From Cephalotus follicularis (Eukaryota; Streptophyta; Magnoliopsida; Oxalidales; Cephalotaceae): 64,000 nucleotides of DNA. The stretch is taken from contig BDDD01000321.1 in NCBI GenBank assembly GCA_001972305.1, positions 124,001 to 188,000 of the forward strand, read 5' to 3'. A program made the position numbers and the translations under genes. The notes beneath the pieces are model-generated. The model was not told where the DNA came from, did not search any database, and saw only the letters and a program-made list of their open reading frames with translations. Positions within the stretch are counted from its first letter, which is position 1. Every line of letters starts with the position of its first letter. Of this stretch, positions 2,112 to 49,321 are shown in pieces.

Positions 2112-2468
2112 AGGTCTGCCTTCCGGGTAATCCATAACAGCAAAGATCTTCTCCAGATCTTGTAACTATCTTTCCGCAATAATCGCATCGAGTTTCCCCT
2201 TAAAACTGGAAGGACTATGCTTCATGAATCTGTCAAGATTCCTTCCAAACTGATTTCCATCATCACGTGCACCATGGCCAGGAGCCATGTGTTGTGGATG
2301 AGCTTGAGCGTACAATCAACGCGTATCCACCATGTTTGCAGCATCCGCAGCCATTTGCTGCTGGAAGTAATCCGCTATACGGCTCATAAGGTTCGTTTTG
2401 TCATTTACTTCCTCAGGAACACTTCCATTAGCGGCTCAAGGCCTTCCGCGTTTTCTCCTTCCATCCAT
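2112..2468 (-). pseudogene. gag remnant of a Ty3/gypsy chromovirus
   Basis: The minus strand downstream of the PBS encodes a recognisable gag start in several frames. A Met-Asp-Gly-Arg-Arg-Lys start at about 2468 is followed by ADYFQQQMAADAANMV, then FMKHSPSSFKGK, then LEKIFAVMDYPE. This is the pattern of plant Tekay-type gag: FxxxxPPxFxGxxDPxxAExWLxxLEKIF. The reading frame has several stops and frame changes and is lost near 2112, where the sequence passes into the repeat block. Non-functional. It belongs to the element whose 5' LTR is 2599-5908. Confidence 0.6.
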
Positions 2469-2580
2469 TTTGTTTCCTATAAGGAAAGATGTCATTGTTC
2501 ATCTCGAGGAAACAATCGTTAATTGCCAAGGAACTTATCCAAGCTAAGAACTTATCCAAGCTAAGCATATAAATGGATAT

Positions 2581-2594
2581 ATGCTCTGATACCA
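2581..2594 (-). other. Primer-binding site (initiator tRNA-Met type)
   Basis: The minus strand reads TGGTATCAGAGCAT, the standard plant primer-binding site complementary to the 3' end of initiator tRNA-Met. It begins 4 bp inside the LTR end at 2599, as expected for a 5' LTR on the minus strand. It fixes the element's orientation. Confidence 0.85.
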
Positions 2595-3468
2595 CTGTTG
2601 TCACACCCCGTTCCCATAACAACAATAATAATGGTAGCAATTAACATAATATCCGGCTTATACAATTTTACGCGGAAATTTAAAACTTTCAAAATGATTA
2701 ATAACTTGCGGAAGCATTTAAATATAAGCCGAATTAAAACGTAACATGCATCCCATACTACATGGTACAACAACAAACATTATCAAAGTTAACTGCCCTC
2801 AAACGGAGCGTGAACAATATTCATCAATACATCGATTCATTTATTACAATGATCCATTAACGTTTCTCAAAGGTAAAAACAACATAAAACTCCATTCGCT
2901 CCACGGAGCTCAACGGTAACAATCTGCTGCATCAACCTGAAATCAATCTGAAATTGTAGGGGGTTAGCCTTTGTCCTCACTCGGCTAAGTATAAATACAG
3001 TTTGGTTTCAATGATAATGCATGTCATGTATGAATGCACAGTGATGCAGTAAGGTATATATAACAGTATATACATATATGTATCTATATATGCATATTCA
3101 CAGTAAAGGTGCAACCCGTTAGGGATACACCAACACAATCACGGTCATGTCCTCAGCGGACCAGTCACAATCATGTCCTCAAAGGACCGAACAAACCATC
3201 AGTTATGCCTCAACGGGCCAACAATCCAGTAATACATGTCACAGCGGACAAACAAACCAATACGGTCAATCATGCGGGGATGCTTCCACTCTGTGTTTAG
3301 CACCCGGCTACTTCCGCTCTGTGTTTAGTAACCGCCACAACAGTCAATCAGTCACATCGGACAAACAATACATCAATCATGTCACATCGGACAAACAATC
3401 CAATTCAAGTTGCTTACACAATAGTGCTTAGCAACCGGTTACTAACACAACAGTGCTTAGTAACCAAA

Positions 3469-3960
3469 AGGGAGTCCCTGGCTACTTACTCAACAGAGCT
3501 TAGTAACCATTGTATGGGAAACCCAAGCTACTTACTTAACAGAGCTTAGTAGCTTCCGTATATGGAATCTTCGGCTACTTACTCAACAGAGCTTAGCAGT
3601 GGAGTTCCTGGCTACTTACTCAATAGAGCTTAGTAACCCAAAAAGGAGTCCCTGGCTACTTACTCAACAGAGATTAGTAACCATTGCATGGGAAACCCTA
3701 GCTACTTACTCAACAGAGCTTAGTAGCTACCATATATGGAATCTCCGGCTACTTACTCAACAGAGCTTAGTAGTGGAGTTCCTGACTACTTACTCAACAG
3801 AGCTTAGCAGCCAAACACAATCAATCAATCCATTACAAGTAATTATTAACAAATATAAGACTCGTAAACAATACATTTCCAAATGTACATCGGTCCTTTT
3901 AAAACGGTGCACAGTCTTGGCTACTTACCCAACAGGGCTTAGATGTCGTCAAAAGTTTCT
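3469..3960. repeat. Higher-order tandem repeat in LTR
   Basis: The core GGCTACTTACTCAACAGAGC followed by TTAGTA recurs about every 55-60 bp. The cores alternate between distinguishable variants (GGAGTCCCT-, GGGAAACCC-, TATGGAATCT- and GTGGAGTTCCT-leading). The same order of variants appears twice, starting near 3470 and near 3645, giving a super-unit of about 178 bp. The array lies in the 3' half of the LTR on the element's own strand. Confidence 0.85.
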
Positions 3961-5500
3961 CAATCCCTTAAAACCACTTTCACAATCCTTTTGGAAAACA
4001 TACATTTCCATATAACAATGAATTAATAAACCATTTATACGCTTCTAAAATGAAGAACATTTTAGAAAACAGGTGATAGCTCAATCAACAATTGTATGCA
4101 ATGCAAACATATGCTCAATAATGCAAACGGGCTCTATTCACGTCAACATGCACCATATAGGCGTTAATGTTCAACCCAGTCACTTAAGCGTCGCCGCTTA
4201 ACTCTTAGAGTCAATGCTTTCAACCAGAAACTTTACGCGTCAACATCTCATCCCTTTGGCGTCGATGCTCTGAGGTAGGAACCTCATGCTTCAACGGCAC
4301 ACATGTCCATTCTCACACACGACGAATCATGGCGTCGACGTTTATCGCGAATCATGACTCATTGTCCGTATAACAATCCATAGCGTCGACGCTTCTTTCC
4401 TAAGCGTCGACGGTTAAGCGAACCAAAACACGGTTCCTTCAACATGCCTCAAAACCAATAAAGTTCAAGCATACAACACATGCAATCCGATCTACAATCA
4501 TTGTAAAACACAATATGCGTGACGGGTTAACTATTCATAGCAACCCTAACACAGTCACACAATCCATAATCCACAGTCCACAATCATTCTACGACACGAT
4601 ATGCATAACAGGTTAACTACTCACAATAACCCTAACACAGTCACACAATTCACAATCCGCAAACCATGCATTTCATCAATGGCATTACAATATTATTGAA
4701 CTCAAACTTGCATGTATAGCTTCCCCTACCTTTGATTCCAAGGTAGGAATCGCAGCAGCAGCAGCACAATCGAGCCGCAGGTTCAATTGCCGAACCTTTC
4801 CCAGAAACCGTTGAACCGAACTCGGTTCTCGCCAATTGATCAATTCCTCAATGCCAAATCCAATTGCCACTCGCACACTGCACATACACAACATTTCCGT
4901 TATGTTCGAGACACAAAACATTTTCGTCGCCGAAACGCCGGCCGGATTCCGACCTACACAACCAGGCGGTGAAACACCCATCAACGGGTTCCACATTGAA
5001 CGGTCTACTCAAAACCGGTCAAGACTCGCCGGGAATCGGCGTCGAACGCCGCGCCACGGCCGGCAGCGAGTTGCGACTCACTGAGTCAACTCGCCGGACC
5101 TCCACAGGTCCGATCACCACCCAAAAACGCCACACATTCACCAGTCCTACACGTCACTGCCCGTGACTCACCAAGACTCGGCGCCAAACGCGTCGTCTCA
5201 GGCGACAGTGAGTCGACTCGCTGAGTCGACTCAGTCAAGCCATTCCGGCCGATTCCGGCCAAATCACGCCTCACCGGTGGTGGAAATGGGTAGAGCGGAC
5301 CTTCTACACCATAACCCACGCCACCCGCGACGCTAACGGCGCCGGGAAACGCTGGGAGGAGGCGCGATAGGGGCGGCAGAGGAGAAGAAAACAGAAGAGA
5401 AAATAGGGGAAGGGGGAAGAGCTTACCGGCGGTAGGCATGCCTGGGTGGTCCGCCGTCCTCTCCCGGTCACGTGGCTGGCTCCGGCGTTGTCTCTAGCGC

Positions 5501-7784: not shown

Positions 7785-7869
7785 ACAATTCTATTAGTGT
7801 TGGATATGTCTTGTTCTCTCTTCCATACTTTTTAAAGTGAGAGCAATTAGATACCTAAGAGTTTGTACT

Positions 7870-8769
7870 TGTTGATACAGAAATCATTCTCTCAACAGTA
7901 TCCTACGTGGAGGACTTTTATTTGTTAAGAGAAACGCTTGTCACTGATGCATGTAAGGAAGAAAGTGATCTCGGACACCTGCACAAGTAGCAACAATGGT
8001 GAAGGCCCAGGAGGTTGTTCTCCCGGGGACACTCCGACGCTCAAGTTAGTCAAGTGTAGATGAAATATTGTACTCTCTTTAATGTAAAAATTGCTGACCT
8101 TTGTTCAGTGTGTTGAACTTGTATTTATAGTGGACTTCTGTAATTGAATGAGCGTATGAATCGGATTGATCGTTATCCCCTAGGAAATGCCGAAGATCTC
8201 GGACATTCCCTTATCTCCGCCTGTAATGTAGCTACTTTCCTTTATTGTAGTGATTGACTTGGACTCTATCTCTGTGTTTGGATAAGTACAGATCCCTTGG
8301 AATCTGGTAAAGGTTATCCCCTTATCCCGTAGATAAGGTTGAGATCCTCCATTATAGGGTAGTATTGATTGTGACATGCCTGCCGAGGAAAGTAAGTCTC
8401 TGCTGTGGTTCCGAGGATGGAACAATGTGTAAGGTCATCCGAGGAAGAGATCCTCAGGTTCGGTATACAGGAGACCGTATCTCCTGTTCTCCACCTGCTA
8501 ATTACTATGGGCCGAGGGATTCCTCGGCCATCGCACCATGAAAGTGGCGTTTTGCCTTTGAGTCCGAGGAGTTTCCTCGGACTTGTGGTCTCAGTGTGTT
8601 GTCTTCGAAAAATGGTGGTCCTCGACTCTAGGTCCGAGATGGACGTTCATTGCCATAAGTGTACTCCTCGGTAGGGTCTACTAACAAGCTTCTAGTCTTC
8701 CCTGGACAGCTGGTCAAGTCTGCTGTGGACACGTGTCCTTGTTTTTATAAACCTATTTTTCCTCCATCA
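7870..8769 (-). repeat. LTR of Tat element 1 (900 bp)
   Basis: On the minus strand the LTR runs from TGATGGAGGAAAAA to TCTGTATCAACA. It aligns over its length with the 902-bp LTR at 22619-23520. The TATA-like word (reverse complement of TATTTATAG near 8111-8120) precedes the conserved U5 block. The CCTCGG/CCGAGG word recurs many times in U3. It is followed at 8770 by the polypurine tract, so it is a 3' LTR. Confidence 0.88.
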
Positions 8770-9359
8770 TATGCCCCCCTGGTTCTTGTTCTCTGAGCTT
8801 GGTCAGAGGAGGAGGACCAGAGTTGAGAGCCATGGCCCAGGCAAGCCTCCTATGCAATACTTCTTGGTAGTTCTTGCTTATATAAATTGGCCGAGGACGA
8901 GAGCATTGCCTTTGCGGCTCCTCTGACGCATAACATAGTCTGATTGAGCCGAGAAATAATGCTTGACCCTTGGTCTGCCTTCACTGCCATCAACAGATCT
9001 CGAGTATTGAACCGTTATGATTAGCCTTTAAGTTGCGTATTAAGTACGCTTTACACGTGTCATGCCCAGAGCAATTTCCGCCTCTGCCGTTTCGTTTCCC
9101 GCGCTTGATTTGACGGTCAGACTTCCCACCGTTGGATCTGATATGAGGTGGATGGCTAGGATCCGAGGAAGGGGCCTATAAAACCCTTGGTTCTTCCCAT
9201 AACACAACTTTTACTTCTTCAATCTTACGAACTCACAATACTTTTTCTCCAGAGCCAGTCGAATTTGCAGTATCTCCAGTTTCTTTTCTTCTTCAACTCA
9301 AAATTTTTGGTAAGTTCCTACCACTTTGTGCTTTCCTACACCGTTTTCTTCTTCTTTTA
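8770..9359 (+). promoter_or_regulatory. PPT (minus strand) and antisense-gene promoter region
   Basis: 8770-8780 is the minus-strand polypurine tract (CCAGGGGGGCATA abutting the LTR). The rest is a leader for the antisense gene. It contains a consensus TATAAAA at 9177-9183 after GGATCCGAGGAAGGGGCC, and GGTAAG at about 9309, a possible 5' UTR splice donor. Both features recur at the same relative place in element 2 (TATAAAA 23928-23934). This suggests a genuine promoter reading opposite to the retroelement. Confidence 0.55.
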
Positions 9360-10849
9360 ATGGACAATCAAGAGCTATCTTCTGGATCTTCTTCTTCTTC
9401 TCCTTCCCCCCTGTCCATTGCGCCTCTGGCTATGGTGCTTCCCCCCGCTGAGAGGCCTAGTGATGTAGAAAGTAGCCTAGGGGCTGTGGTGGGTGACCCT
9501 GTTGCACCCACTGCTGAGGGCAATCCTCTGGCCGAGGACTGTGCCTTTGAGTTGAGTAAACTCAATCTGGCCGAGGTCAAAGTTCTTACCAGAAAGTATA
9601 ATCTTCCTCGTGGATTGACCTTTGATATTCCTAGGGATCCTCGGATAATTGCTCAGAGCCGAGAAGGCCTTTTTGTGGTCTTCGAAGCTGCTCTTGCCCA
9701 TGGTCTGAGGGTCCCTGTTCCCTCTTTTGCCATCTCGGTCCTTTTGAACTTTAGTCTTCATCCTTCTCTTCTTCAACCTCAGTCTTGGGGTTTCATGATA
9801 GGCTTTTTAGTTAGATGTATAGAGTCCGAGGTGACAGCTACTGTGAATCTCTTCAAGGAGTTCCATGTCATCTCGGCCACCCCCAAAACAAATGGATATT
9901 TCTTCCTTCTCAACCCCACCCAATCAATAAAAAACTGGAGAAGAAAATACTTCTTAATAAAAAACTTCGAGGGATTCATTCCCTCCCCTTGGTGCACGTC
10001 CTTGGACGTCCCATTTTTAAACAAAAAAGCCCGTCTGTCCTCGGCTGAAAAATCAGGACTTAGCAAGCTCCTGGCTCTTGAGCCAGAAGACGTAAACTCC
10101 ACCGTGTTCGAGGATCGTCTAGTCCAGGCAGGACTTAGTAAACTCCTTGAACATGAATCCTTCTCGGAAGGGTCTGAGGAGGAAGAATCAGAGGAAGAGG
10201 AAGAGCACAATAGTCCTCTGCCCCCGATGTCTGAACAGACTTGTATATCACCTTCGTCTTCTTTGTCTTTTCTATTTGTACTATTTTTAATAACCCTTGT
10301 ATTCTCTGTTCTCTAACTGTGACTTTCCTGTCCTCTTTCAGCCATGGGTCCTCGCCGAGATGTGTCTGCCATCCTCAAGTCTGCTAGTCTGAGGAGGGCC
10401 TCTGATGCTTCTGGGTCGAAGTCCAAGGGAAAAGCCCCAATGACCGAGAAAGCAAGGCCGCCGATCAAGACACCTCCTCCTCCTCCTGCTAGGGTCTCGG
10501 TAACTGTGACCGAGAAGAGGAAGGAGACCCACAAGAGGCCGGCTGACCAGACCCCCTCAACTGAGCGAGCTTCTCTGACAAAGAGGAGCAGGAAAGACAA
10601 GGCTGTAGATGGCTCCGAGAGGGTTCGGGAGGTCGAGGACGTAGCTGCTCTCGGGGCCAGTTCCCAAGATCCCGTAATCGTTCCCCCTTCTCTGCCGGTA
10701 GACCAACTGCTTGATGGGTTGGATTTTGAGAGGCTGAGCTTGAATGATCCTGGAGTCCCTCAACGACTCAGCCGTCTAGTCTTCGTGCCCAGGGAGTTGG
10801 AGTCAAGGCAGGGGTGGACCAATGAAGACTTGTCCACCGTTTGTCTAAT
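9360..10849 (+). pseudogene. Antisense gypsy-type transposon protein, 5' part (exons 1-2), element 1
   Basis: Exon 1 (9360-10242) encodes MDNQELSSG, a Ser-rich stretch, then a PF04195-like domain (putative gypsy-type transposon) with RGLTFDIPRDPR, REGLFVVFEAAL and QSWGFMIGFLVRCIESE, and an acidic Glu-rich tail. A phase-1 intron has GTATAT as donor and TTTCAG as acceptor (10341). It leads to exon 2 (10342-), which starts SMGPRRD and is basic and Pro-rich with a KRSRK-type nuclear-signal-like cluster. Exon 2 is cut at about 10849 by the inversion breakpoint, where an unrelated tail (MPSI, stop) is read. Compared with element 2, eight residues (KSRSGVKK region) are missing near residue 184. The function of this protein family is unknown. 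Confidence 0.7.
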
Positions 10850-12310
10850 GCCGAGCATCTGAGGAAGTACTATCAATAAATTGTAAGATATTTTCAATGA
10901 AAGTTTGAAATTTTTCCAAGATCTATGTTCAACATTATAGTTCCAAGTTTGCAAGGGACCGGAGGTCCAATGTTCAAGTCCTCAAACCTCTGAACAGCCA
11001 CCGATCAGTTCCCTAAGGTCTACTTAAAGCATCTCGGACCACGCTCCCAAGGGGGCACCAAGGTCCAAAGCTTCTTAAGCCTCACGCAGGCTAATTCTCA
11101 AAAAAAAAGAAAATCAACAAGGGTCGAGGTCTCACGCAGACCAGTCAAACGGGCGTTTAAGAGCATCCAAGGATGCACTTACAAAAGCCTCCTTCCGAGG
11201 AGCAAAACAAAAGCCTCCTTCCGAGGAGCAAACAAAAGCCTCCTTCCGAGGAGCATCTATATCCATCAACAAAGACTTCCAAGGAAGCAAGACTCCCAAG
11301 GGAGCAAAGACTGGTTGGCAATACCATGGGAACTTGCCCAACCGGACCAAAAGTCGTGACTTGAGAGGCGAATCCATGGGAACTCGCAACGATCAAGGTC
11401 GTCGGACTGAGCACTTTAATACAAGTGTCTCCAAGTGGACTGAAAGCTCAGCCGACCTGTCCTAGAACATCCTAGGTCAGACGATACTCTCCTCGGCAAA
11501 CCCGTGAGAACTTGTCCGAGCAGACCAAGAACTCAAACTATGAGTATAAGGATATTGTGAAGACTGAGATGCTGTCAAATTAAAGTACTCTCAAAGGTGA
11601 AGGGTCCTACGTGGACTATCAAAATTGTGTGACCTCGCCCACCAAAGGTTAGTGATTTTTGTTAAGTTAAAAGTTCCAAGGAACTATCAGTATACATACA
11701 CGTTCAAAGCTCGAACACGTATGGAGTTGATCACGTCCGAGAAAGCAAGGGCCTGTTCTTTTTTACTCAAGCCCTTTTTGAAGTTATTTGCTTACTTATG
11801 AAAGAAATCCGAGGTCACAACAAGAATAAAATTCCCAAGGGAATCATCAATATTTATATACTTTGATCAAGTGTCCAAGTATTCCGAGAAGACGAAATCC
11901 GAGGAGACAGGGTTCTTTTCATTTATATGTTCGAGTTACTTAAGTTCTGATTGGAGTTAAGTGTTCACTTAGGGCAAAGGTCCGAGATTACTTTGAAGGC
12001 AAAAAATTCCTAAGGGAGTTGTCAATTGAAGATCAAGTCCGAGAAGGCAAAGCCTCCTTTACTTATATACTTGCTAAAGTTACTTAAGTTCTTTTCAAGT
12101 TAAGTGTTCATTCATAGGAGAAGTCAGAGATTACTGCGAAGACAAAAATTCCTAAGGGAATTATCAACAAGCAGAGATAAACCACAACACTTAGTGAACA
12201 AATTTAAATGTGAAGACAGAGGATAAGAAAGGAAATTTTTCATTAATGTTTAAAAAGATTACAAGCAGAAGAAGCCAAAGGCTATTACAAGACAAAAGAA
12301 AAAACAAAAA
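10850..12310 (-). other. Inverted spacer arm of element 1 (integrase end to antisense 3' UTR)
   Basis: Read on the minus strand, this stretch matches element 2 from about 26621 to 27880. The match begins at the last codons of integrase (the NAEHLRKYYK coding site) and covers the intervening non-coding spacer with its repeated TTCCTTGGAA / CCTTCCGAGGAGCA short repeats (three copies at 11189-11251). Nothing here is coding. Its orientation is opposite to the same sequence in element 2 relative to the left LTR. Confidence 0.75.
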
Positions 12311-12626
12311 CTAAGTCTGAGGAGCCCCTTCATGCTCAGAAGGAGGATCATCGCGAGGAGGAGGAGGAAGAAAGAAGGCTTCAGTTGAAGGAAGAGGAGG
12401 ATAACCCACACCAGCAAAGATGTCTTCTGGAGTTGAGGAAGGAGCAAGAGCAGAGGAGTCCACCACAGGATCCGAGGAAGTAGTACCAAGATTTTCACCA
12501 AGAACAACTACCTCAGGAGAAGTAGGAGTTGTCGTCTCGCCCACGGCAGCAGCAGAAGCCTCTTGAGCCAACTTCTCACGGACCTTGTCCTCTGCCTCAT
12601 CAATCCCTTCAGGATAGAAGTCGAAG
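12311..12626 (-). pseudogene. Antisense gene, 3' end (exon 3 C-terminus) fused to LTR U5
   Basis: Minus-strand codons from AFDFYPEGIDEAEDKV to the terminal EGAPQT and stop match the last 110 residues of the antisense protein of element 2. The reading frame continues upstream into the U5 end of the LTR (MEDFYLLRETLVTD), giving a chimeric 119-residue frame. The joint lies at the word GATGC, shared by the LTR (CACTGATGC) and nearly by the gene (AATGC). The chimeric frame is a by-product of the rearrangement. Confidence 0.75.
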
Positions 12627-12712
12627 GCATCAGTGACAAGCGTTTCTCTTAACAAATAAAAGTCCTCCACGTAGGATACTGTTGAGAGAAGGATTTCTGT
12701 ATCAACAGTACT

Positions 12713-19857: not shown

Positions 19858-19884
19858 GTTCACTACTAGAAAAAGACCATTTCC

Positions 19885-20420
19885 CGACCGCCAAAGCGGT
19901 CGGGAAAACCTTAAAAGCGGTCGGCGAAAGGTTTTCCCGACCGCCGCGCCGACCGCAATGACGGCCGCTTATAATTGGGTCACCGATTATAGCCCGACCG
20001 TTTCCCCGACCACCTTTATCATTTACCGACCGTTAAAACGGTCGGTAAGGGATGCAGTTGCTGTTGATCGGTGTCAGAAAATTAATTTTATGAGGGTTTT
20101 ACCGACCGCCCTGGCGGTCGGGGAATGTTGAAAGCGGTCGGGAAATAAAAGAAATTTTTGAAATTAAATTAATTTTATAAGGGTTTCCCGACCGCTCAGG
20201 CGGTCTGGAATGTTTGAAAAGCGGTCGGGAAATAAAAAAAAAATTTTGAAATTTGATAAAATTTATAAAGGTTTCCCAACCGCTCCGGCGGTCGGGAATG
20301 TTTGAAAAGAGATCGGGAAATAAAATAAATTTTTGAAATTTAATTAATTTTTATGAGTTGTTTGCCGACCGCTATAGCGGTCGGGGATTGTTGTAGCGGT
20401 CGAGAATTGTTGTACTGACC
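19885..20420. repeat. CACTA left subterminal repeats
   Basis: Multiple copies of CCGACCGC and GCGGTCGG occur, often paired as short palindromes (for example CCGACCGCTATAGCGGTCGG at 20364-20383). From 20080 a roughly 90-bp unit, GGTTTCCCGACCGCT..GGCGGTCGGGAATGTTTGAAAAGCGGTCGGGAAATAAA with an AT-rich spacer, is repeated about four times. Such arrays are the expected transposase-binding sites of CACTA elements. Confidence 0.88.
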
Positions 20421-22618: not shown

Positions 22619-23520
22619 TGTTGATACAGAAATCTTTCCTTCAACAGTATCCTACGTGGAGGACTTTTATTTGTATAGAGAAACGCCTGTCACTAATGCC
22701 TTGAGGAAGCTTTTGATCTCGGACACCTGCATAATGTAACAACAATGGTGGAAAGTCCAGGAGGTTGTTCTCCCGGGGACACTCCGACGCTCAAGTTAGA
22801 CAAGATGCAGGTGAAACAATGTACTTTTGAATGTAAAAATTGCTGACCTTTGTTCAGTCTGTTGAACTTGTATTTATAGTGGAGCTTTGTAACTGATAGA
22901 GCGTGTAATTCGGATGTGATCATTATCCCCTAGGGAAATGCCGAGGATCTCGATCATTCCCCTTGATCTCCGCCTATAATGTCGCTGTTTCCTTTGTTGT
23001 AGTTGATTGTGACTCTATCTCCTTGTTTGGATAAGTGCAAATCCCGAGAAATCAGGTGGTGTTAATCCCCTTACCCCATAGATAAGGTTGAGGTCCTCCG
23101 TTTGCATGACTGTAGAGGAAATCAATTATGATTCTGTTGCAGAGGTCATTGTCCTCTTTAGTCCGAGGACAAATGTAGCTTGAGTATGTCCGAGGAGGAG
23201 CTCGATAGTCTCTGTGTAGTGAAGGGAATTTCTCCTGTCCTGCATCTGTTAGATACTTTGGGAAGAGGAAGTCCTCGGCCCTTACACCTTGGATGTGGTC
23301 TTCTGCTTCTAAGTCTGAGGAGCGTCCTCGGACTTGATGTCTCAGTATGTTCTCTTCAAAAATTAATGATCCTCGGCTATAAGTCCGAGAAGGACGTTCT
23401 TTGCCATATGTGTACTCCTCGGCACGGCCTGTTAACTAGCTTCTGATTCCCCATTGACATTTGGTCAAGTCTGCTGTGGACACGTGTCCTTCTTAATATA
23501 AACATATTTTTCCTCCATCA
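22619..23520 (-). repeat. 3' LTR of Tat element 2 (902 bp)
   Basis: On the minus strand it runs from TGATGGAGGAAAAA to TCTGTATCAACA. Its U5 block is nearly identical to those of elements 1 and 4. The partner 5' LTR (32100-32467) lacks the segment corresponding to about 22892-23424. Confidence 0.92.
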
Positions 23521-24134
23521 TATACCCCCCTGGTCCTTGTTCTCTGACCTTGGCCAGAGGAGGAGGATCAGAGTTGAGAGCCGTGGCCCAGGCAAGACTC
23601 CTCTGCAATGCTTCTTGGTAGCTCTTCCTTGCACAAATGGGCTGAGGCTGAGAGTGTTGCCTTTGTCGTTGCTCTGCTTCATACCCTAGTCTACTTGAAC
23701 CGGGGACTAGAGCCTACCCTTTGGTCTTCCATCAATCTTATCAACGGGCCTCGAGTAGTGAACCGTTATGATTATCCTTTAAATTGCGTCTTGAGTACGC
23801 TTCACACGTGGCGAGCGCAGAGCAATTCCCGCCTCTGTCTTTTCATTTCCCGCGCATGATGTGACGATCTGTTTCCCCACCGTTGGATCTGTTTTAAGGT
23901 GGAGGGCCAGGATCCGAGGAGGGGGTCTATAAAAGCTTTTGTTCTCCCCAAAACATAACTTTCGCTTCTTCAACCTTCGGAACTCACAGTGTTTTTGAGA
24001 GCTCAAATCTGCAGTGTCTTCAGTGTCTTTTTCCCAAACCTTCGAATCAAAATCTTTGGTAAGCTTCTACCAACTCTGTGCTTTCCCAGATCATTTTCTT
24101 CTTTTGTGGTTTCTTCTTCTTCATCTTTTATTTC
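23521..24134 (+). promoter_or_regulatory. PPT (minus) and antisense-gene promoter/leader, element 2
   Basis: 23521-23535 holds the minus-strand polypurine tract CCAGGGGGGTATA next to the LTR. In the plus direction, GGATCCGAGGAGGGGGTC precedes TATAAAA at 23928-23934, and a pyrimidine-rich leader follows. GGTAAG near 24058 is conserved with element 1 and could be a 5' UTR splice donor. Conservation of the TATA context in two elements supports a real promoter for the antisense gene. Confidence 0.55.
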
Positions 24135-26620
24135 ATGGCTAGTCAAGAACTGTCCACTGGGTCTTCTTCTTCCTCTTCTTCTTCTTCTCCCTTATCTGTT
24201 GAGCCTTTGGCCATGGTGGTTCCCACCGCTGAAAGGCCACTTGGGGTTGAAGGTAGTCTAGGGGCTGCTGTGGGTGTCCCTGATGCACCCACTGCAGGGG
24301 CCAATCCTCTGCCTGAGGATTGTGTCTTTGGCTTGAGCACTCTCAGCCAAGCCGAGGTCAAAAGGCTTTCAAGAAAGTACAATTTCCCTCGTGGGTTGAC
24401 CTTCAATCTTCCTAAGGATCCTCGGGTAGTCACCGAGAGCCGAGAAGGCCTCTTTGTGGTCTTCGAAGGGGCTCTTTTCCATGGTCTGAGGGTCCCTGTC
24501 CCCTCCTTTGCCATCTCGGTCCTTCTTAGCTTTAGTCTTCATCCTGCACTTCTTCAACCTCAGTCTTGGGGTTTCATGATAGGGTTCCTCGTCAAATGCA
24601 TAGAGTCCGAGGTGGAAGCGACTGTGAATCTCTTCAAAGAGTTTCACGTCATCTCTGCCACCCCCAAAACAATCGGGTATTTTTTCAAGTCCCGTTCTGG
24701 GGTGAAAAAACTTCTTCTCAACCCCACCCAATCTATAAAAAACTGGAGGAGGAAATACTTTTTAATAAAGGACTTTGAAGGGTTTATTCCCTCTCCCTGG
24801 TGTAGCTCCTTGGACGTCAAGTCTTTGAACAAAAAATCTCGTCTGACCTCGGCTGAAAAGATAGGTCTAAGTAAGCTCCTGGCCCTTGAGCCAGAGGATG
24901 TCAACTCCACCATAACTGAGGATCGTCTGGTCCAGGCTGGACTAAGTGTGGTCCTCGGACGGGAATCCTCCTCGGATGGATCCGAGGAGGAAGAATCAGA
25001 GGGAGAGGGAGAGCAAAGTAGTCCTCTGCCCCCAATATCGGAACGAACTTGTATAAAATCTTTGTCTTCTCTGTCTCTTCTATTAATACTGTTTTCACTA
25101 ACCTTTGCATTTTTTGATCTCTGACTCTGACTCTCTTGTCTTCTTTCAGCAATGGCTCCTCGCCGAGATCTTTCTTCTATCATTAGGGCCACTGATCAGA
25201 GGAAGGCCCCTGCACCTACTGGGCCAAAGCCTAAGGCAAAAACTCCTGTGGCCGATAGGCCAAGGCCACAGGTCAACACCCCTTCTCCTCCTCCTTCTGT
25301 TAGGGTGCCCGTGGCCACGACCGAGAAGAGGAAGGAGGGGAGCAAGAGGCCGGCTGACAAAACCCCCTCCACTGAACACGCTCCTCTGACGAAGAGGAGC
25401 AGAAAGGGGAAGGCCGTGGATGGCATCGAGAAGGTGCGGGAGGTCGAGGACGTTGCTGCCCTCGGATCAAGCTCCCGGATCCCATAATCATTCCTCCATC
25501 TCGGGGGGTGGAAGAGCTGCTCAATGAGTTTGAGGGCATGGAGTGCGATCGCTTGAACCTGAGTGGTGCTGGAGTCCCCCCCAGGCACTTAGCCGGCTGG
25601 TCTTCTTCCCCATGGAGGTGGAGGCGAGGCAGAGGTGGTCCAACGAGGAGTTGGTGACCAACTGTCTGAGGAACCACTTAAGGGTGAGTGATCTCTGCCT
25701 TTGTTGCCTTGACTTCTCTTCTATTTCAACTCTTCAAATTTTCTAACACTTTTTTGCTTCTGTGACAGTCTCTGAACGACACTCAACTGCTTGTGGACAA
25801 CTTCTCTGCAGTGGTGGCCAGGGACCGAGAGCTGAGGTCGAGCATGGCCACATTAGAGGAGACTGCTCGCTCGGCCCAAGCTCAGCTGAACGAGGTTCTG
25901 AAAGTTCAGGAGTCCTTGGCCGAGGAGAAGAAGCAAGCAGTTGAGGCCTTAGAGGAGGAGAGGGCCGAGAGGAGGAGGCTCGAGGCCAAGCTAAAACGGG
26001 CCGAGGAGAGAAATGATGATCTGGTGGTCAAGCTTGAGCGGCAGCAAAGGAAAGAGAAGGAGCAGCTGAGGAAGGAACAACGCCAGTCCGTGGCCGACTT
26101 CAAGAACTCGGAGGAGTTCAAGGAGTTGATGAGGTCCTCCGTGGAGGAGTTCAAGAGCTCTGATGAATTCGACGAGGCAGTGTTCTTGGAAGCGGCCGAG
26201 TACTTTCGCCGAGGCTTCTATGCCTGCAGGAATTGGATCGCTTCTCTGAAGCCCAAGTTCCCTCTGGATGAAGTGGTGTATTGTCACTCTGCCAATGCAT
26301 TTGACTTCTACCCAGAGGGGATTGATGTGGTGGAGGACAGGGTCCGTCAGAGGTTGGCGCAAGAGGCCTCATCTACCTTGGTGGAGGATCGGGCAACTCC
26401 CACTTCTCCTGATTTGGTTGTTCTCACCACGGATCCTACTGCTGCTCCCTCCTCGGAACCTGCATTAGACTCCTCAGCTCTTCCTGCATCTTCAACTTCA
26501 GAGGACATCTTCGCTGGTTTGGGCGATCCTCCCCTGCCTTCTGTGGGGGCCTTCTTTGCTCCTCCACCTCCTCCTTCTGAAGATCCTCCAACAGAGCACA
26601 GTGATGCTCCTCAGACTTAG
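24135..26620 (+). pseudogene. Antisense gene of Tat element 2 (PF04195-like, three exons)
   Basis: Exon 1 (24135-25050) starts MASQELSTG, then a Ser run, then the putative gypsy-type transposon domain: RGLTFNLPKDPRVV, LFVVFEGALFHGLRVPVPSF, QSWGFMIGFLVKCIESE, LFKEFHVISATPK and NWRRKYFLIKDFEGFIPSPW. An acidic tail follows. A phase-1 intron (GTATAA...TTTCAG) leads to exon 2 (25150-25683), basic and Pro-rich with KRPADK and KRSRKGK. A second, phase-0 intron (GTGAGT...GACAG) leads to exon 3 (25769-26620), a long Glu/Lys/Arg-rich coiled coil, then AAEYFRRGFYACRNWIASLK, AFDFYPEGID and an acidic, Pro-rich end. One base is missing near 25482 (early stop after GSSSRIP) and the frame shifts again near 25582, so this copy is broken. 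The protein's role is unknown. Confidence 0.72.
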
Positions 26621-27844
26621 TTTTTGCTTTAGCCTTGTAATAGTTTTCTTTTTATCTTCTGTAATCTTTTTGAATATCAATGAAGGAAACTCTTTTCTCA
26701 TTCTCTGATCTTGTCTTTGAGTTTTTCTTCTGTGTTGTGATTGATCTCTGCATACTTGTTCTTGTTATTAATTCCCTTAGGAATTTTTGTCTTCATAGTA
26801 ATCTCTGATTCTTCACACAAATGAGCACTTGACTCCAAAAAATCTTAAGTAACTTAACAAAAATATAAGTAAATGAGGCTTTGCCTTCTTGGACTTCATC
26901 TTCAATTGGCAATTCCCTTAGGAATTTTATTCTTGTTGTGACCTCGGATTCCTCGCATAAATGAGCAACTAACTCCAAAAAGGCTTAAGTGACTTAACAA
27001 AAAGAACAAGCCCTTGTATTCTCGGACTTAATCAATTCCACATGTGTTGAAGCTTTAAGTGTGCTTGAGTATTGATAGTTCCTTGGAACTTTTAAGTTAG
27101 CCCAAATCACTAACCTTGCATGGACGAGGTCACTCAAGCTTTAAGAGTCCTCGTAGGACCCCTAATTTGTAAAAATGCTTAAGTAATTATAAGAAAACTT
27201 TTGCACTCACAGGTTGAATTCTTGGTCTGCTCGGACAAGTTCCCATGGGTTTGCCGAGGAGAGTATCGTCTAACCTAAGATGTTTTAGGGCAGGTCGGCT
27301 GAGCTTTCAGTCCACTTGGAGACACTTGTATTAAAGTGCTCAGTCCAATGAGCTTGATCGTTGCGAGTTCCCATGGATTCGCCTTTCAAGTCACGATTTT
27401 AGGTCTGGTTGGACAAGTTCCTATGGTGTTGTCAACCAGTGTTTGCTCCCTTAGGAGTCTTAGTGCTTCCTTGGAAGTCTTTAGGAGTACTCCTCGGAAG
27501 GAGTCTTTGCTGTTGTATATCGGCGCTCCTTGGAAGGAGTCTTTAGTATGTGCATCCTTGGATGCTCTTGAATGCCTGTTTTACTGGTCTGTCTGAGACC
27601 TCGGCTTGTGTTGGTTTTCCTTTTGAGAATTAGCCTCCGTAAGGCTTAGGGAACCTCGGATTTTTAGGTGCCCCCTTGGGGGCGTAGTCCGAGATGCTTA
27701 ATCTAGAACTGAGGGAACTGATCGGTGGCTGTTCAGAGGTTTGAGGACATGAACATTGGACCTCCGGTCCCTTGCAAACTTGGAACTAGGATGTTGAACA
27801 CAAATCTTGAAAAATTTCAAACTTTCATTGAAAATATCTTACAT
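26621..27844. other. Spacer between antisense gene and integrase, element 2
   Basis: Non-coding. It carries repeated short words built on CCTTGGAA, CTTAGGAATTTT and TTCCTCGGAAGGAGTCTTT, with duplicated segments around 26770-27010 (two copies of a block ending CTCCAAAAA..CTTAAGT.ACTTAACAAAAA). The same spacer is present, inverted, in element 1. Confidence 0.6.
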
Positions 27845-28684
27845 TTATTTATAGTACTTCCTCAGATGCTCGGCATTCCAAGCTCTGGCAATCTCCCTAC
27901 CCCCCAAAGTTTCAAGTTTGAATGTTCCTGGGCGGAGGACCCTTTTGATCTTGTATGGCCCTTCCCAGGTAGGGGCTAGTTTTCCTCTGGTGCCAGTGGG
28001 ATCTGCCACGGCTGAGTTGCGTAGAACTAGATCTCCTTGTCTTAGTGGTCTCGGGCTTAATTTTTTGTTGTAGTAACGACTAACCCTTTGTTGGTAGGCT
28101 GCAACTCTGATTTCAGATTTATCTCTGAGCTCTCCCACAAGGTCGAGGAGGCATCTAAGCCCTTCTTCGTTGTTGTCTTCAGTGAAGTGCACAACTCTTG
28201 GTGATTGCATTCCAACCTCCACTGGTATCATAGCCTCGGCTCCGAAACACAAACTGTAGGGGGATTCTCCTGTTGTAGTCCGAGGAGTGGTTATGTATGC
28301 CCATAACACGCTTGGTAACTCCTCGGTCCACCTTCCTTTGCTGTCTTCTAGGCGCTTTTTCAAGCCCGAGATGATCTCTCTGTTTATCACCTCGGCTTGA
28401 CCATTGCTTTGAGGGTAGGCTACTGAGGCAAGCCTGTGCTCTATTCTCCATTCTCTGCAAAAGTCCCGAAAGGCTTGGCAATCAAACTGCTTGCCATTGT
28501 CGGTGATAATTGTCCTCAGAACTCCAAATCTGCAGATTATTGACTTCCACACAAAACTCTCTGTATTCTTCTCTGTAATCGTGGCCAAAGGTTCTGCCTC
28601 TACCCACTTAGTGAAGTAATCAACTGCTACAATGAGGAACTTTCTCTGGCCTGTTGCCATAGGTAATGGTCCAACGAAGTCCAT
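27845..28684 (-). CDS. Integrase core and C-terminal domain, Tat element 2
   Basis: A 279-residue open frame. It has the retroviral-type integrase core with D (VAVDYFTKWVEAEPL), D (TIITDNGKQFDCQAF) and E (GQAEVINREIISGLKKRL), then GESPYSLCFGAEAMIPVE and a C-terminal segment ending IARAWNAEHLRKYYK. The D-D-E residues are all present. Upstream, a TGA at about 28685 replaces the codon before MDFVGPL, and a one-base loss at about 28793-28800 separates it from the zinc-finger part (HHCC residues around 28740-28800). It is therefore a detached piece of the polyprotein. Confidence 0.88.
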   Translation of the reverse strand: MDFVGPLPMATGQRKFLIVAVDYFTKWVEAEPLATITEKNTESFVWKSIICRFGVLRTIITDNGKQFDCQAFRDFCREWRIEHRLASVAYPQSNGQAEVINREIISGLKKRLEDSKGRWTEELPSVLWAYITTPRTTTGESPYSLCFGAEAMIPVEVGMQSPRVVHFTEDNNEEGLRCLLDLVGELRDKSEIRVAAYQQRVSRYYNKKLSPRPLRQGDLVLRNSAVADPTGTRGKLAPTWEGPYKIKRVLRPGTFKLETLGGREIARAWNAEHLRKYYK

Positions 28685-28791
28685 TCACCACTGCGCGAAG
28701 GGCCACGGGGCCGTTAGTGATGTCAGAGGTTGAGAAGGCCTTCTACTTATGTTGGCGTTCCTCTGACACTTGTCACACTTCTTCACCAAGT

Positions 28792-31047
28792 TTATAGCAT
28801 CTTGATGATGGTTGGCCAGTAGTAACCTTGCCTTAACAGCTTATAAGACAAAGTCCTGCCTCCTGTATGGTTGCCACAAATTCCTTCGTGGACCTCCCTT
28901 AAGGCGTAGTCGGCTTCTGAGGGGTTCAAGCACCTCAGCCAAGGAAATGAGAAAGACCTTTTGTAAAGGATCCCATCTCGGAATTGGAATCTGTTTGCTC
29001 TGTAGACTAGCTTCCTTGCCTCCACGGGGTCCTCCGGTAGGATCCCATCCCTTAGCCAATTAATGAAGGGAGTCATCCAATTTGGCTCCTGAGGGACATC
29101 TATGTCCATTACCTCTGCTTGAGAGATGGTTGGACGATCCAGGTAGTCAACTAGCACCGTTTGATTTTTCTCCAACTCCTCTGCTGTTGCTAGCTTTGAT
29201 AGTTGGTCTGCCCTGACGTTCTCTGCTCTGGGTACTTTAATAATTCTCAAAACTTCAAAGGCTGACTTCATGCCCTGAAAATGGGACAAGTACTTCGTCA
29301 TAAGGTCTTCTCTGGCCTCATACTCCCCATTCGCCAAACCAACCACCAGCTGAGAATCACTTGAGGCTTCAATCCTCTGCACCTCCTGCTGCCTCTCAGG
29401 GGCAAAGTTCCTCTTCTTTTGTCTGATCGGGGGCCTGGCCGGGTTCACACTCAGTTTGTGAACCATTACATTTGAACTGATGCCAGGGACCTCCTCTGCC
29501 GACCACGCAAAAACATCTTTATTATCTCGGAGGAATGTTATTAACTCCTCCTTCTCCACCTCTCCAAGTTGTGAGCCAACTTGGAGTACTCTCTCTGTGT
29601 TGCCCTCTTCCACGGGCACTTGGAGGACGTCTTCTACCGGCTGTGGACGCTCTGGTTCCATGTCTCCTCTGAGCTCCACATTTGCTATGGGGAGAACCTT
29701 GCCCTTCCCCTTATCCGAGATGGCAGTTTTGTAGCATCTCCTCGCCACCTCTTGATCTCCTCTGACTTCCCCCACGCCAAACCTTGTGGGAAACTTCATT
29801 AATAGGTGTCTCGTAGACACTATGGCTTCCAACAAATTCAGACCTGGTCGCCCTATTATCGCATTGTATGGGCTTGAGGTGTCCACCACCAGGAATGTCA
29901 TCTCTACCTGAGTCTGGCGTGGGGCCGTACCTGCAACCACGGACAGGTTGATAGATCCCAGAGGATGGATCGTTTCACCTGTGAAGCCGACCAGTGGGGT
30001 CTTGACAGGCTTCAGTTGGTCGGCTGGTATCCTCAACTGATCAAATGCATGCTTGTACAGGATATCGGTCGAGCTACCACTATCAAGAAGGATTCTCTTC
30101 ATGGTAAAAAGTTCTACCAGAAGAGTAACCACCACTGGATCATCGTGAGGAAGGCGTACTCCCTCATAGTCCGCCTCCGAGAAGGTTATCACCTCCTCAT
30201 CTCCTCCAGTTCTGAGCCTTTTGCTGTGAGGGACTTGTTGCACAGCAAGGGACTGTCTCCCATAGGCCTTTCTCACGTTTGAATGGTCGCCCCCTGACGC
30301 GACCCCACCAGAGATGGTGTGGATGACACCTCTGGGTTGCTGCTGTTGCTGCTCCTCCTGCTGCCGAGGAGCCTCTTCTCTTCTCTGCTCTCTTCTTCCT
30401 TGAGGAGCATCTCTGTCCACATACTTGCGCAGGTGTCCCTTTCTAATCAGATCCTCAATCTGATTCTTCAGCTGCCTGCATTCCTCTGTATCGTGGCCGT
30501 GGTCACGATGATACCGGCAGTACTTCTCCACATTTCTGTTCTCTGCCGGGGTTCTCAGCTTCTCAGGCCATTGAAAAGGGACCTTATCTTGCTCCACAGC
30601 AAGTATCCTTGTCCGCGTGTCCAGAAGGGGGGCAAAGGTGTTGTAAGATGGTGTTGGTACCCCGCCCCTGGATGTGCCCTCTCGCCTGGAGAGCTTATGT
30701 CTGAGGTCTCCCTTGGACAGGTCTGACCTCTCCTTTCTCTTCTCTCTTCTCTCGGGAGCATTTTGTGAAGGCTCCCTTCTCTCCTCCTGATGGCCAGTCC
30801 AGGGTGTCTTTTGCTTCCTGGCCACCATCTCTTCCTCGGTATTGACATACCTCTCTGCCCTTTTCAGCAAGTCTGCCATGTCCTTGGCCGGTTTCTTCAG
30901 TAGAGAGAAGGTGAATTTCGAGTTGCTCCTCAGCCCGTTGTTCAGGGCTGCCAGAGCAAAGGAAGGCTCCAGGTCTTTCACTGTGAGCGATTCCTTGTTA
31001 AACCTGGTGAGGTAATCTCTCAATGATTCATCCTTACCCTGCACCAC
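28792..31047 (-). CDS. Gag-protease-(deleted RT)-RNase H tail polyprotein, Tat element 2
   Basis: A 751-residue open frame with the second half of the gag domain (DYLTRFNKESLTVKDLEPSF), a zinc-knuckle-like CRYHRDHGHDTEEC and an aspartic protease (ILLDSGSSTDILY). At FAPERQQ the frame jumps directly to EVQRIEASSDSQLVVGLANG. In element 4 these two points are about 1.4 kb apart, the interval holding all of RT, the first RNase H and most of the archaeal-type RNase H. The deletion keeps the reading frame. The frame then runs through RADQLSKLATAEELE to the start of the integrase zinc finger (HEGICGNHTGGRTL) and ends by frameshift at WPTIIKML. It cannot reverse-transcribe. Confidence 0.88.
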   Translation of the reverse strand: MVQGKDESLRDYLTRFNKESLTVKDLEPSFALAALNNGLRSNSKFTFSLLKKPAKDMADLLKRAERYVNTEEEMVARKQKTPWTGHQEERREPSQNAPERREKRKERSDLSKGDLRHKLSRREGTSRGGVPTPSYNTFAPLLDTRTRILAVEQDKVPFQWPEKLRTPAENRNVEKYCRYHRDHGHDTEECRQLKNQIEDLIRKGHLRKYVDRDAPQGRREQRREEAPRQQEEQQQQQPRGVIHTISGGVASGGDHSNVRKAYGRQSLAVQQVPHSKRLRTGGDEEVITFSEADYEGVRLPHDDPVVVTLLVELFTMKRILLDSGSSTDILYKHAFDQLRIPADQLKPVKTPLVGFTGETIHPLGSINLSVVAGTAPRQTQVEMTFLVVDTSSPYNAIIGRPGLNLLEAIVSTRHLLMKFPTRFGVGEVRGDQEVARRCYKTAISDKGKGKVLPIANVELRGDMEPERPQPVEDVLQVPVEEGNTERVLQVGSQLGEVEKEELITFLRDNKDVFAWSAEEVPGISSNVMVHKLSVNPARPPIRQKKRNFAPERQQEVQRIEASSDSQLVVGLANGEYEAREDLMTKYLSHFQGMKSAFEVLRIIKVPRAENVRADQLSKLATAEELEKNQTVLVDYLDRPTISQAEVMDIDVPQEPNWMTPFINWLRDGILPEDPVEARKLVYRANRFQFRDGILYKRSFSFPWLRCLNPSEADYALREVHEGICGNHTGGRTLSYKLLRQGYYWPTIIKML

Positions 31048-31133
31048 GTTGATGAGGTGGGTAGAATTTCTCCTCTAGGTGGTGCTGTTGAGGAACTTTG
31101 TGACGAACAGTTCCGTAAACTGGTCAAAGCTCT

Positions 31134-32054
31134 TCACTGAATTCTTGGCCAAGGTGAAATACCATGATTGGGCAGCTCCACTGGGAATCCTCGGCAAAGC
31201 ATGGCGTCCGAGGCCTGATGCATCCACATAGCCTGGATATAGGTGCGTACATGTTGGATGGGATCCGTGGACCCATCGTACTTATCAAGATTTGGGTTTC
31301 GAAACCCACTGGGGACTGGCTCTGCTATGATCTCGGCTGTGAAGGGGTGTGCATTGATGTTTTGCACCTCGGATAGGCGCCCCCCATGCCGTTCCACTCC
31401 TCGGAATCTCCTTTCCAGGTCTGCGAGCCTTCTATCCACTGCTTGCTTTACTTCTTCTATGTTCCTAACCCTGCTAGAAACATGTGATCTCCCAGCTACT
31501 GAGGCTGGGGGATTGACCCTGCTTCCTCGGGCCGTGCAAGCTCTATGTGGAGCGTTGGAACGCACTTGGGCCTCCTCTACTCCCCTGGCCTCCTGCCGAG
31601 GATCCACGTCCATGGCTTGATGCTGAGGGTGCACTCTTCTGGGATCGCTGGGGTGATCCCTAGCAGTCGAGGACTCAGCTCTCTGAGATACATTGATCTC
31701 AGACCTCCTTCCCAGGGGATTGTTGTCCCCTGACCGCCTGAGGAGAGGTTCGTTTCTCCCCGACGGGTTTCGCCTGGCACCTCGGGGGTGCCTTGTCTCC
31801 ACCTCTGGCCTGTGAGGGCCAGAAACTCCTCGGTCCACTGGCTGGGCGGGCCCGACCTGTTGCTGTTGGTTGGCCAAAGTTGTGACCAATAGATCAGTGA
31901 TTCGCTCCATCCCTTGGAGGAGCTGACTGAGTTGCTCCCCTGTAACGGGAGCTTGTTGTTGAGCCACTTCTTGAACGGCTTCCGGTGGAGGAGCCATGAC
32001 CTCCTGTTGCTGGCTACCGGTGGCTCCAACCAGAGTGTTCTTCCTCGGAGGCAT
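31134..32054 (-). pseudogene. Gag N-terminal part, Tat element 2
   Basis: A frame from MPPRKNTLVGATGSQQQEV through a Gln/Arg-rich region to GFRNPNLDKYDGSTDPIQHV and AMLCRGFPVELP. There a frameshift (relative to GFPVTLTGAAQSWYF in element 4) ends the frame. A further TAG at about 31074 (CAG in element 4) separates it from the next frame, which begins MVQGKDESL. Start Met32054 lies 45 bp after the LTR, the same place as the intact gag start of element 4. Confidence 0.85.
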
Positions 32055-32077
32055 GATTGTTAATGACTTTTTATCGC

Positions 32078-32097
32078 GTTTCTCACAGACGGCGCCA
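32078..32097 (-). other. Primer-binding site of Tat element 2
   Basis: The minus strand reads TGGCGCCGTCTGTGAGAAAC, two bases inside the 5' LTR. Element 4 has the same site with one difference (GTGGGAAAC). Confidence 0.85.
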
Positions 32098-32099
32098 AC

Positions 32100-32467
32100 T
32101 GTTGATACAGAAATCTTTCTCTCAATAGTATCCTACGTGGAGGACTTTTATTTGTAGAGAGAAATGCCTGTCACTAATGCCTTGAGGAAGCTTTTGATCT
32201 CGGACACCTGCACAAGGTAACAACAATGGTGGAAAGTCCAGAAGGTTGTTCTCCCGGGGACACTCCGACGCTCAAATTAGACAAGATGCAGGTGAAACAA
32301 TGTACTTTTGAATGTAAAAATTGCTGACCTTTGTTCAGTCTGTTGAACTTGTATTTATAGTGGAGCTTTGTAGGCCTGTTAACTAGCTTCTGATTCCCCA
32401 TTGACATTTGGTCAAGTCTGCTGTGGACACGTGTCCTTCTTAATATAAACATATTTTTCCTCCATCA
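32100..32467 (-). repeat. 5' LTR of Tat element 2, internally deleted (368 bp)
   Basis: It has the same termini as the 902-bp 3' LTR, but GGAGCTTTGTA is joined directly to GGCCTGTTAACTAGC, removing about 533 bp of U3. What remains is U5, the TATA-like region and the outermost about 85 bp of U3. Since paired LTRs are identical at insertion, the deletion arose later. Confidence 0.9.
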
Positions 32468-47835: not shown

Positions 47836-47973
47836 ACCTAAAAATTTACGGCGTAATAATGAGCATTGAGTGAAGGGGGTAGCTCGAGGCGACACCTGTC
47901 GCACCCTACCACGTTGACGGTTGGGGTGGTTTGCTAGACTTGGACCTAGTTCACCCAACACAGGAACCTAAGG

Positions 47974-48570
47974 AGGGGTTCTCAACCCAGCCTCTGCCCT
48001 TCACTTGGTCAGCCCAGGCACGCCCATCGCGTTAGCCCATTAGGGGTCCTCAACCCGGCCTCTGCCCTTCACTTGGTCAGCCCAGGCACGCTCAGCGCGT
48101 CAGCCCATTAGGGGTCCTCAGCCCGGCCTCTGCCCTTCACCTGGTCAGCCCAGGCACGGTCAGCGCGTCAGCCCATTAGGGGTCCTCAGCCCGGCCTCTG
48201 CCCTTCACTTGGTCAGCCCAGGCACGCTCAGCGCGTCAGCCCATTAGGGGTCCTCAGCCGGGCCTCTGCCCTTCACCTGGTCAGCCCAGGCACACCCAGC
48301 GCGTCAACCCATTAGGGGTCCTCAGTCCGGCCTCTGCCCTTCACCTGGTCAGCCCAAGCACGCCCAGTGCGTCAGCCCATTAGGGGTCCTCAGCCCGGCC
48401 TCTGCCCTTCACCTGGTCAGCCCAGGCACAGCGCATCAGCCCAGGAAGGGTCCTCAGCCTGGCCTCTTCCCGTCCCCTGGTCAGCCCAGGCACGCTCAGT
48501 GCGTCAGCCCAGGAGGGGTCCTCAGCCCGGCCTCTTCCCGTCCCCTGGTCAGCCCAGGCAGGTTCCGCTA
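47974..48570. repeat. 68-bp GC-rich minisatellite, about 9 units
   Basis: AGGGGTCCTCAGCCCGGCCT, CTGCCCTTCACCTGGTCAGC, then CCAGGCACGCTCAGCGCGTC and AGCCCATT make one unit. Unit starts at 48043, 48111, 48179, 48247, 48315 and 48383 are exactly 68 bp apart. The last two or three units are variant (CTCTTCCCGTCCCCTGG). It lies between the antisense gene's start region and the PPT. Confidence 0.92.
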
Positions 48571-48650
48571 GCTGACCTGCGGAAGCTCTTCCCCCGGGGA
48601 CCATCCCGATCCCGCTTCTCTAACTCTGCTCCCCCTCCTCTGCCACGGCC

Positions 48651-48675
48651 AGAGGAGCAGGACCAGGGGGGTGTA
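48651..48675 (+). other. Polypurine tract of Tat element 3
   Basis: GAGGAGCAGGACCAGGGGGG followed by TGTA directly abuts the 3' LTR. The CCAGGGGGG core is shared with the PPTs of elements 1 and 2. Confidence 0.85.
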
Positions 48676-49321
48676 TGATATGGGAAAAATTCCTTTTGAA
48701 CCTGATGACACGTGTCAGGGGAGGAGGACAACAGCTGTCCTCCCAAGGAATGGTGGCATTGCCCATGGGTCTTGTCACCAATTAAGGAAAAGGTCTCCCC
48801 CAAACTGTCTGACATGCCACACATGCCAGAAGGCCAGTCTCACACGCCCACGCAGCCACACAACTAGGCTGACACCCCATCACATCAGTGTGAGGGAAGA
48901 GACTAACAAGCCGTCACAGCCCTCCAATCCATTAATGGGCATGCGGCTATTCACACCAAAGGGGGAGGAGACCAAGGGAAATGTCAGGGCCACTGACGTC
49001 CTCCCCCTAGGGGCAGCCACTCCCGATTGGACACTCATCAATCACAGACACTCCTATAAATACCAGTTCAACAGTCAATACAAAGGTCAGCCATTTTTCT
49101 AGCATACAAAGAACCCATTATTCTCTGTACAACAACTAACTTGAGCTTTGGAGTGCCCCCGGGAGAATAACCTCATGGACCTTCTACCACTCTCTCTTAC
49201 TTGTGCAGGGATCAACCACCATTACTCAACACCCTTTCTCGGACAGATTCCAGCGTTTCCTCTAAACAAATCAAACTCTTACATGTGGGGTACTGTTGAC
49301 GGAAGGATTTCTGTATCAACA
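48676..49321 (+). repeat. 3' LTR of Tat element 3 (646 bp)
   Basis: It starts TGATATGGGAAAAATTCC, the same U3 start as element 4, and ends GGATTTCTGTATCAACA. A TATAAATA box lies at about 49055, followed by the conserved CAGTCAATACAAAGGTCAG region. The U5 with CCCCGGGAGAATAACCTCATGG is shorter than in the other copies. Confidence 0.9.

Follow-up and report, generated by a model that had tools for sequence, protein, structure and literature searches.

In the general scheme of reverse transcription, synthesis of the minus strand is primed by a tRNA and begins at the U5 terminus of the long terminal repeat (LTR). Inverted terminal repeats are characteristic of DIRS elements, Penelope-like elements and terminal inverted repeat (TIR) DNA transposons, which are not products of an LTR integrase, and a retroviral circle with an inverted segment was reportedly described by Shoemaker in 1980, its junctions lying at the LTR terminus and having been made by integrase. 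Among plants, four complex LTR insertions of grasses, which arose by template switching, carry target duplications and have a shared internal LTR, have been described (Sabot and Schulman, 2007; PMC1950507), and the Transposase_28 domain is characteristic of Retand elements according to PMC11963269. For HIV-1, binding of two U5 duplexes by a single integrase/LEDGF complex has been shown (PMC3623958). The subject of the present analysis is element X, an insertion at positions 7870–12707 of a 64,000-nucleotide stretch of the genome of Cephalotus follicularis (hereafter the window; contig BDDD01000321.1, positions 124001–188000). The source assembly comprises 1.58 Gb in 9746 contigs, and copies are named below by “C” and the number of their contig, the window thus being C321:124001–188000. 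Both termini of X are the outward-facing U5 end (TGTTGATACAG...) of one Tat/Retand LTR.

The two outer ends of X, 7870–7950 and 12627–12707, form an inverted repeat of 81 nt that is complementary at 80 of its 81 positions and is the sole inverted pair of at least 25 nt reported between positions 7000 and 13700 of the window. The pentamer GTACT adjoins both ends directly (7865–7869 and 12708–12712), with no extra bases between it and U5. A search of the 1.58-Gb genome with the left flank of X gave five matches, the window included, of which C1037 and C321:119472 run uninterrupted across the insertion point into the right flank (...AAGAGTTTGTACTGTTTA...) and carry one GTACT; both are empty sites in related repeats of the target and not allelic copies of the locus. 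C7 and C1477 align with the glucosyltransferase end, diverge beyond it and offer no clear empty site. Because the uninterrupted target loci carry a single GTACT, X entered by one integration using two U5 ends, and a single concerted insertion at GTACT, with the 5-bp duplication typical of the family, is established at the level of sequence; two independent insertions are rejected because of the single clean duplication. The initial annotation, made from the window alone, had described outward U5 ends in an inverted repeat of about 80 bp, a duplicated GTACT and one integration with two U5 ends, all of which were borne out, and the observation that it had named as a possible refutation, an empty site showing that GTACT was not duplicated, did not materialize, the pentamer being single in uninterrupted sequence.

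A rearrangement after insertion, by which inversion or deletion would have turned an ordinary element, or two opposed elements, into a structure with two outward U5 ends, has a certain appeal in that family copies with internal deletions or duplicated flanks exist (C589, C1262 and C342). Two insertions, however, would bear unrelated duplications, the chance agreement of two 5-mers with the flank composition of X being approximately 0.0013, and one breakpoint of an inversion inside a single element would have to coincide with the terminal base. Given also the one clean duplication seen at the empty sites, this explanation is considered very improbable, in agreement with the earlier opinion that a later inversion was unlikely.

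The normal state of the family is represented in the same window by an ordinary element of the same group at 22619–32467, in minus orientation, which is flanked by the duplication AGGGG and has a U5 terminus on one side and a U3 terminus on the other. The left arm of X (7870–10832) is collinear with 22619–25653 of this element (77%), and with closer copies the collinearity extends up to 10846; the right arm (10847–12630) is inverted against 27877–26295 and is followed by U5. This alignment, together with near-identical copies, confirmed the order of parts originally proposed for X (Table 1). All nine of the relatives with both outer ends in view have one U3 end, one U5 end and a 5-bp duplication, namely the window element (AGGGG), C589 (ACCGT), C1262 (CTAAC), the solo LTR of C1974 (AGATG), C342 (CTTTT), C180 (AAACC), C823 (ATTAT), C244 (GTTTA) and C6371 (CTTTT); copies with one outer end in view, C1649 among them, were left out of this count. 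Since C180, C823, C244 and C6371 were picked for a second LTR in ordinary orientation nearby, the sample shows the normal state of the family and gives no estimate of how rare X is.

X contains the LTR, the polypurine tract, the leader, pieces of the antisense gene, the spacer and U5, and of pol only the last 33 nt; gag and a 5′ LTR are missing, and no gene for any other enzyme was observed in the element. The open reading frame (ORF) at 9360–10316, part of the antisense gene located between pol and the 3′ LTR, contains PF04195 (Transposase_28) above the cut-off. In this respect X resembles the Retand lineage of plant Ty3/gypsy elements as presented in PMC11963269, in which an antisense Transposase_28 ORF lies between pol and the 3′ LTR, and X is made solely of such parts; unlike the Retand elements presented there, it lacks gag, pol beyond the last 33 nt, a primer-binding site and the 5′ LTR. 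Of the features expected of a Tat/Retand element, the antisense ORF and the 5-bp duplication are thus present in X, and direct LTRs with U3 and U5 outer ends are absent. X is likewise distinct from DIRS elements, Penelope-like elements and TIR DNA transposons in that its ends are Tat U5 sequences.

Table 1. Features of element X and its target site (positions in the window).
Feature	Position	Strand	Basis
Left target-site duplication GTACT	7865..7869	.	Sequence; single GTACT in empty sites L031, L032
Complete LTR (3′ LTR, minus orientation; U5 terminus 7870, U3 terminus 8769)	7870..8769	-	98.6% identity to C1974 solo LTR, 901 columns
Polypurine tract (minus-strand reading), adjoining U3 as in ordinary copies	8770..8779	-	Sequence; same place in relatives
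Putative antisense-gene leader	8780..9359	+	Collinear with ordinary copies
Antisense gene, putative first exon, ORF with Transposase_28 (PF04195)	9360..10316	+	Domain above cut-off
Antisense gene, putative second exon, truncated at J1	10344..10846	+	98.7% identity to C4484 at 10620-10846
Junction J1, second exon / inverted end of pol, blunt, zero shared bases	10846..10847	.	Single copy in assembly
Final 11 codons of integrase frame, stop included	10847..10879	+	Matches last 33 nt of pol ORF, element 22619-32467
Spacer between pol and antisense gene, inverted relative to left arm (end approximate)	10880..12251	+	Comparison with ordinary copies
26-nt tandem repeats inside the spacer	11181-11257		
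End of putative antisense exon 3, inverted relative to left arm (start approximate)	12252..12631	-	98% identity to C4484 over 11894-12631
Junction J2, exon 3 / U5, microhomology AAGGCATC	12624..12631	.	8 nt with C4484 U5, 7 nt with C1974; single copy in assembly
Second U5 terminus (83 nt), inverted relative to its left counterpart	12625..12707	+	100% identity to C1974 LTR; 80/81 nt complementary to left arm
Right target-site duplication GTACT	12708..12712	.	Sequence; single in empty sites

Two internal junctions distinguish X from the ordinary copies, and they were used to count its copies. A search with a 301-base query across J1, in which the best 40 of 3171 candidates were scored and 42 matches were obtained, gave a full-length match in the window only among those 40; of the partial matches, one covers the left side alone (C4484, 100% over 147 nt) and the other 40 cover the right side. 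C1177 and C2158 were considered as carriers of J1 and rejected, their matches beginning at query position 121, 27 nt to the left of J1, and being attributable in both to a tandem copy of the pol end that happens to resemble the left side. For J2, the window alone matched the full length of the 233-base query among the best 40 of 939 candidates, the other 39 ending within the first 154 bases. Pattern searches with 25 and 27 nt, allowing up to three mismatches, detected J1 once and J2 once in the 1.58-Gb assembly (0 for the reversed control), and scans of viral contigs for J1 and J2 gave 0 matches. X is therefore a single-copy element in this assembly, some stretches of which read N. An 18-nt primer-binding site, sought in the window with up to three mismatches, occurs twice, beside the element at 22619–32467 and at 59184, and was not found in X. 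X would consequently not be copyable as a unit by the usual route, and could hardly repeat the process that formed it, because no primer-binding site was detected within it and the promoter of its sole LTR is probably directed out of the element.

The initial annotation had raised, for the case of multiple copies, a new non-autonomous class of such elements and had suggested searching for further copies of the junctions with other target duplications; the search returned one copy of each junction, at this locus only. In favor of such a class are the terminal inverted repeats and the target duplication of X, by which it resembles a member of a TIR-like family with two U5 ends. Because each junction occurs once and X lacks a primer-binding site, a multicopy class is rejected for this assembly, which represents the one accession searched, and the probability that X is one copy of a mobile family is regarded as negligible.

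The sequences of both arms were compared with tiled copies of the family. C4484 is the closest of these both on the left-arm side of J1 (10370–10846, 98.4–98.7%) and where the right arm carries exon 3 (11847–12596, 97.5–99.2%), and for the remainder of the left arm the best tiled copy reaches 86–94% per tile, the LTR of C1974 (98.6%) lying outside that tiling. Across 82 nt, no difference separates the right U5 from the LTR of C1974, against two differences in the left U5. By these identities, both arms of X appear to fit one subfamily. In a protein search with the antisense ORF, all six matched proteins were from Cephalotus follicularis, which also provides the best match of the glucosyltransferase next to X (93% over 88% of the query). 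For the second exon, a protein search found no match among 931 candidates, and a scan of viral contigs for the antisense gene returned 600 pattern-matching stretches and no relative.

Around J1, ordinary copies have GAGGAGG where the second exon runs on past 10846, and AGCTTGG in front of the pol sequence that starts at 10847. No base is common to the two sides at this point, whichever the direction of synthesis, so J1 is blunt. At J2, AAGGCATC is common to exon 3 and the U5 of C4484 (8 nt), and AGGCATC to exon 3 and the LTR of C1974 (7 nt); for the left U5 of X as it now stands, the overlap with exon 3 extends to GCATC only, one of its two differing bases falling there. The near-identical copies thus confirmed that two junctions exist where they had been proposed, near 10850 and at GATGC, and moved them to 10846|10847 and 12624–12631. 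Since J1 lacks homology and J2 has 7–8 nt of it, the two junctions look like the outcome of different processes. The microhomology supports J2 as what would be expected of a reverse-transcriptase jump, and the blunt J1 mildly favors the end joining of two cDNAs.

These observations bear on two further explanations. An assembly artefact fusing two Tat copies is conceivable in an abundant family (3171 and 3169 first-look candidates), but chimeric joins are as a rule located within long stretches of identical repeat, and the joins at J1 and J2 have only 0 and 7–8 shared bases; the matching duplication and the matching empty sites would in addition be a coincidence. An assembly error at X is therefore unlikely, and this explanation is given only a very slight chance. 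The other is strand switching in a virus-like particle, as the initial annotation had proposed: a growing minus-strand cDNA would leave its RNA near exon 2 and take a second minus-strand cDNA as template as far as the U5 start of the latter, and the resulting linear DNA with two U5 ends would integrate normally. This model predicts the same anatomy, in which the outer ends are minus-strand starts, orientation flips once and the arms derive from one subfamily. Copying a primed cDNA to its end, however, should copy part of the tRNA too, unless the primer had already been removed, and no extra bases separate U5 from GTACT; at J1, microhomology is missing in both directions of synthesis. The part of the model that concerns a microhomology-guided jump at J2 is retained, whereas the switch at J1, with no shared base, is explained at least equally well by end joining. 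Grasses provide examples of insertions that arose through template switching and bear duplications (PMC1950507), and strand switching is a serious possibility for X, although a somewhat doubtful one. Like those insertions, X would be an aberrant cDNA fused from parts of two templates and inserted once with a 5-bp duplication; unlike X, they have three LTRs, including a shared internal one, with LTRs as outer ends in ordinary orientation, whereas X is inverted and has two U5 outer ends.

Because minus-strand synthesis starts at the U5 terminus in the general scheme, two U5 ends imply two minus-strand starts. An origin of X from two incomplete cDNAs, arranged head to head and blunt-joined at J1 as a one-off product of one Tat/Retand retrotransposition, is favored with roughly even confidence. 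Each U5 end of X would represent the tRNA-primed 5′ start of a minus-strand cDNA, and the inserted DNA would have been either a linear molecule with two U5 ends or two DNAs each supplying one U5 end. The first cDNA may have undergone a normal first strand transfer and halted, incomplete, in antisense exon 2; the second, after 83 nt of U5, would have jumped at AGGCATC into exon 3 of the element RNA and copied it to the end of pol. The distal ends of the two cDNAs would then have been joined head to head by blunt end joining, giving J1; this step may have preceded integration, or it may have sealed a chromosome break that remained once a single intasome had inserted the ends of two separate cDNAs. 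End joining is preferred at J1 because this junction has no homology whereas J2 has. The more specific proposition that one plant intasome can take the U5 ends of two different unfinished cDNAs and insert both at one target with a normal duplication, end joining sealing the break, is put forward tentatively and is rather unlikely. Two U5 donors integrate in vitro. In having two U5 ends brought into one complex, X would resemble the HIV-1 integrase/LEDGF complex, which was demonstrated for binding only (PMC3623958), X being a natural plant insertion. The resemblance to the circle attributed to Shoemaker is restricted to an inverted arrangement of parts; unlike the junctions of that circle, J1 and J2 are internal.

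Several points weigh against the origin from two cDNAs. The C4484 contig ends before the segment corresponding to 10847–11486, and the subfamily comparison with C4484 does not span that segment. Template switching can happen without homology, so the blunt J1 is compatible with it. It is also possible that J2 is a post-insertion deletion between two copies of AAGGCATC in a once longer inverted right arm. No intermediate of a two-cDNA process is visible. X is the one case in this analysis that speaks for the acceptance of two U5 ends in the Tat/Retand family, and the concerted integration assay in the HIV-1 study used a donor carrying both a U3 and a U5 end, so that the study supports the binding of two U5 ends, not their insertion (PMC3623958).

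Other irregular copies were observed during the comparison. The 5′ LTR of the ordinary element (32100–32467 of the window) lacks approximately 534 bp present in its 3′ LTR (22619–23520). A diverged Tat U5 end at 49252–49321, with polypurine tract/U3-like sequence at 48617–48690, belongs to another element in plus orientation, and tandem arrays occur at 47906–48649 (68-bp units), 1637–1876 (30-bp units) and 19880–20405 (units containing the palindromic GACCGC/GCGGTC). At 2328–4804, C1262 (L020) harbors an element of 2.5 kb that ends in U3 on one side and in U5 on the other, shows the duplication CTAAC and is composed of 304 nt of U3, the spacer–exon 3 region and 214 nt of U5, without a complete LTR. 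A deletion derivative of 2.8 kb, ending in U3 and U5 and flanked by the duplication CTTTT, lies in C342 (L046) at 155–2939. In C589 (L021; 1501–6317), the flank TATTCATGGTAGACCGT stands ahead of the first LTR and once more between exon 3 and the second, which looks like a tandem duplication after insertion. In C1649:215000–223693 (L044; 4545–5448), the U5 terminal CA of a full forward LTR directly abuts internal sequence of an inverted LTR, starting at position 174 of the latter, after which come the polypurine tract and the antisense gene; the right end runs off the contig, the 2 kb to the left are unlike any Tat sequence compared, and the two flanks share no 5-mer. This arrangement may have come from the joining of a U5 end into a different cDNA.

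Among the papers listed by the literature searches, which left most subscription journals outside, no account of a two-U5 insertion arising naturally in a plant was seen, and its absence is not thereby proven. X is a natural insertion with empty sites in which the integrase of an LTR element apparently used two U5 ends. Inverted LTR ends with a target duplication can pass for a TIR transposon, and caution is needed in classifying such insertions. X also provides a search rule, an outward-facing U5 pair with a shared 5-mer, by which such events could be counted, and their junctions could separate strand switching from the integration of two cDNAs. If the proposal of one intasome acting on two cDNAs is true, LTR elements would become TIR-like insertions by this route, and their integrase would need no pairing of U3 with U5.

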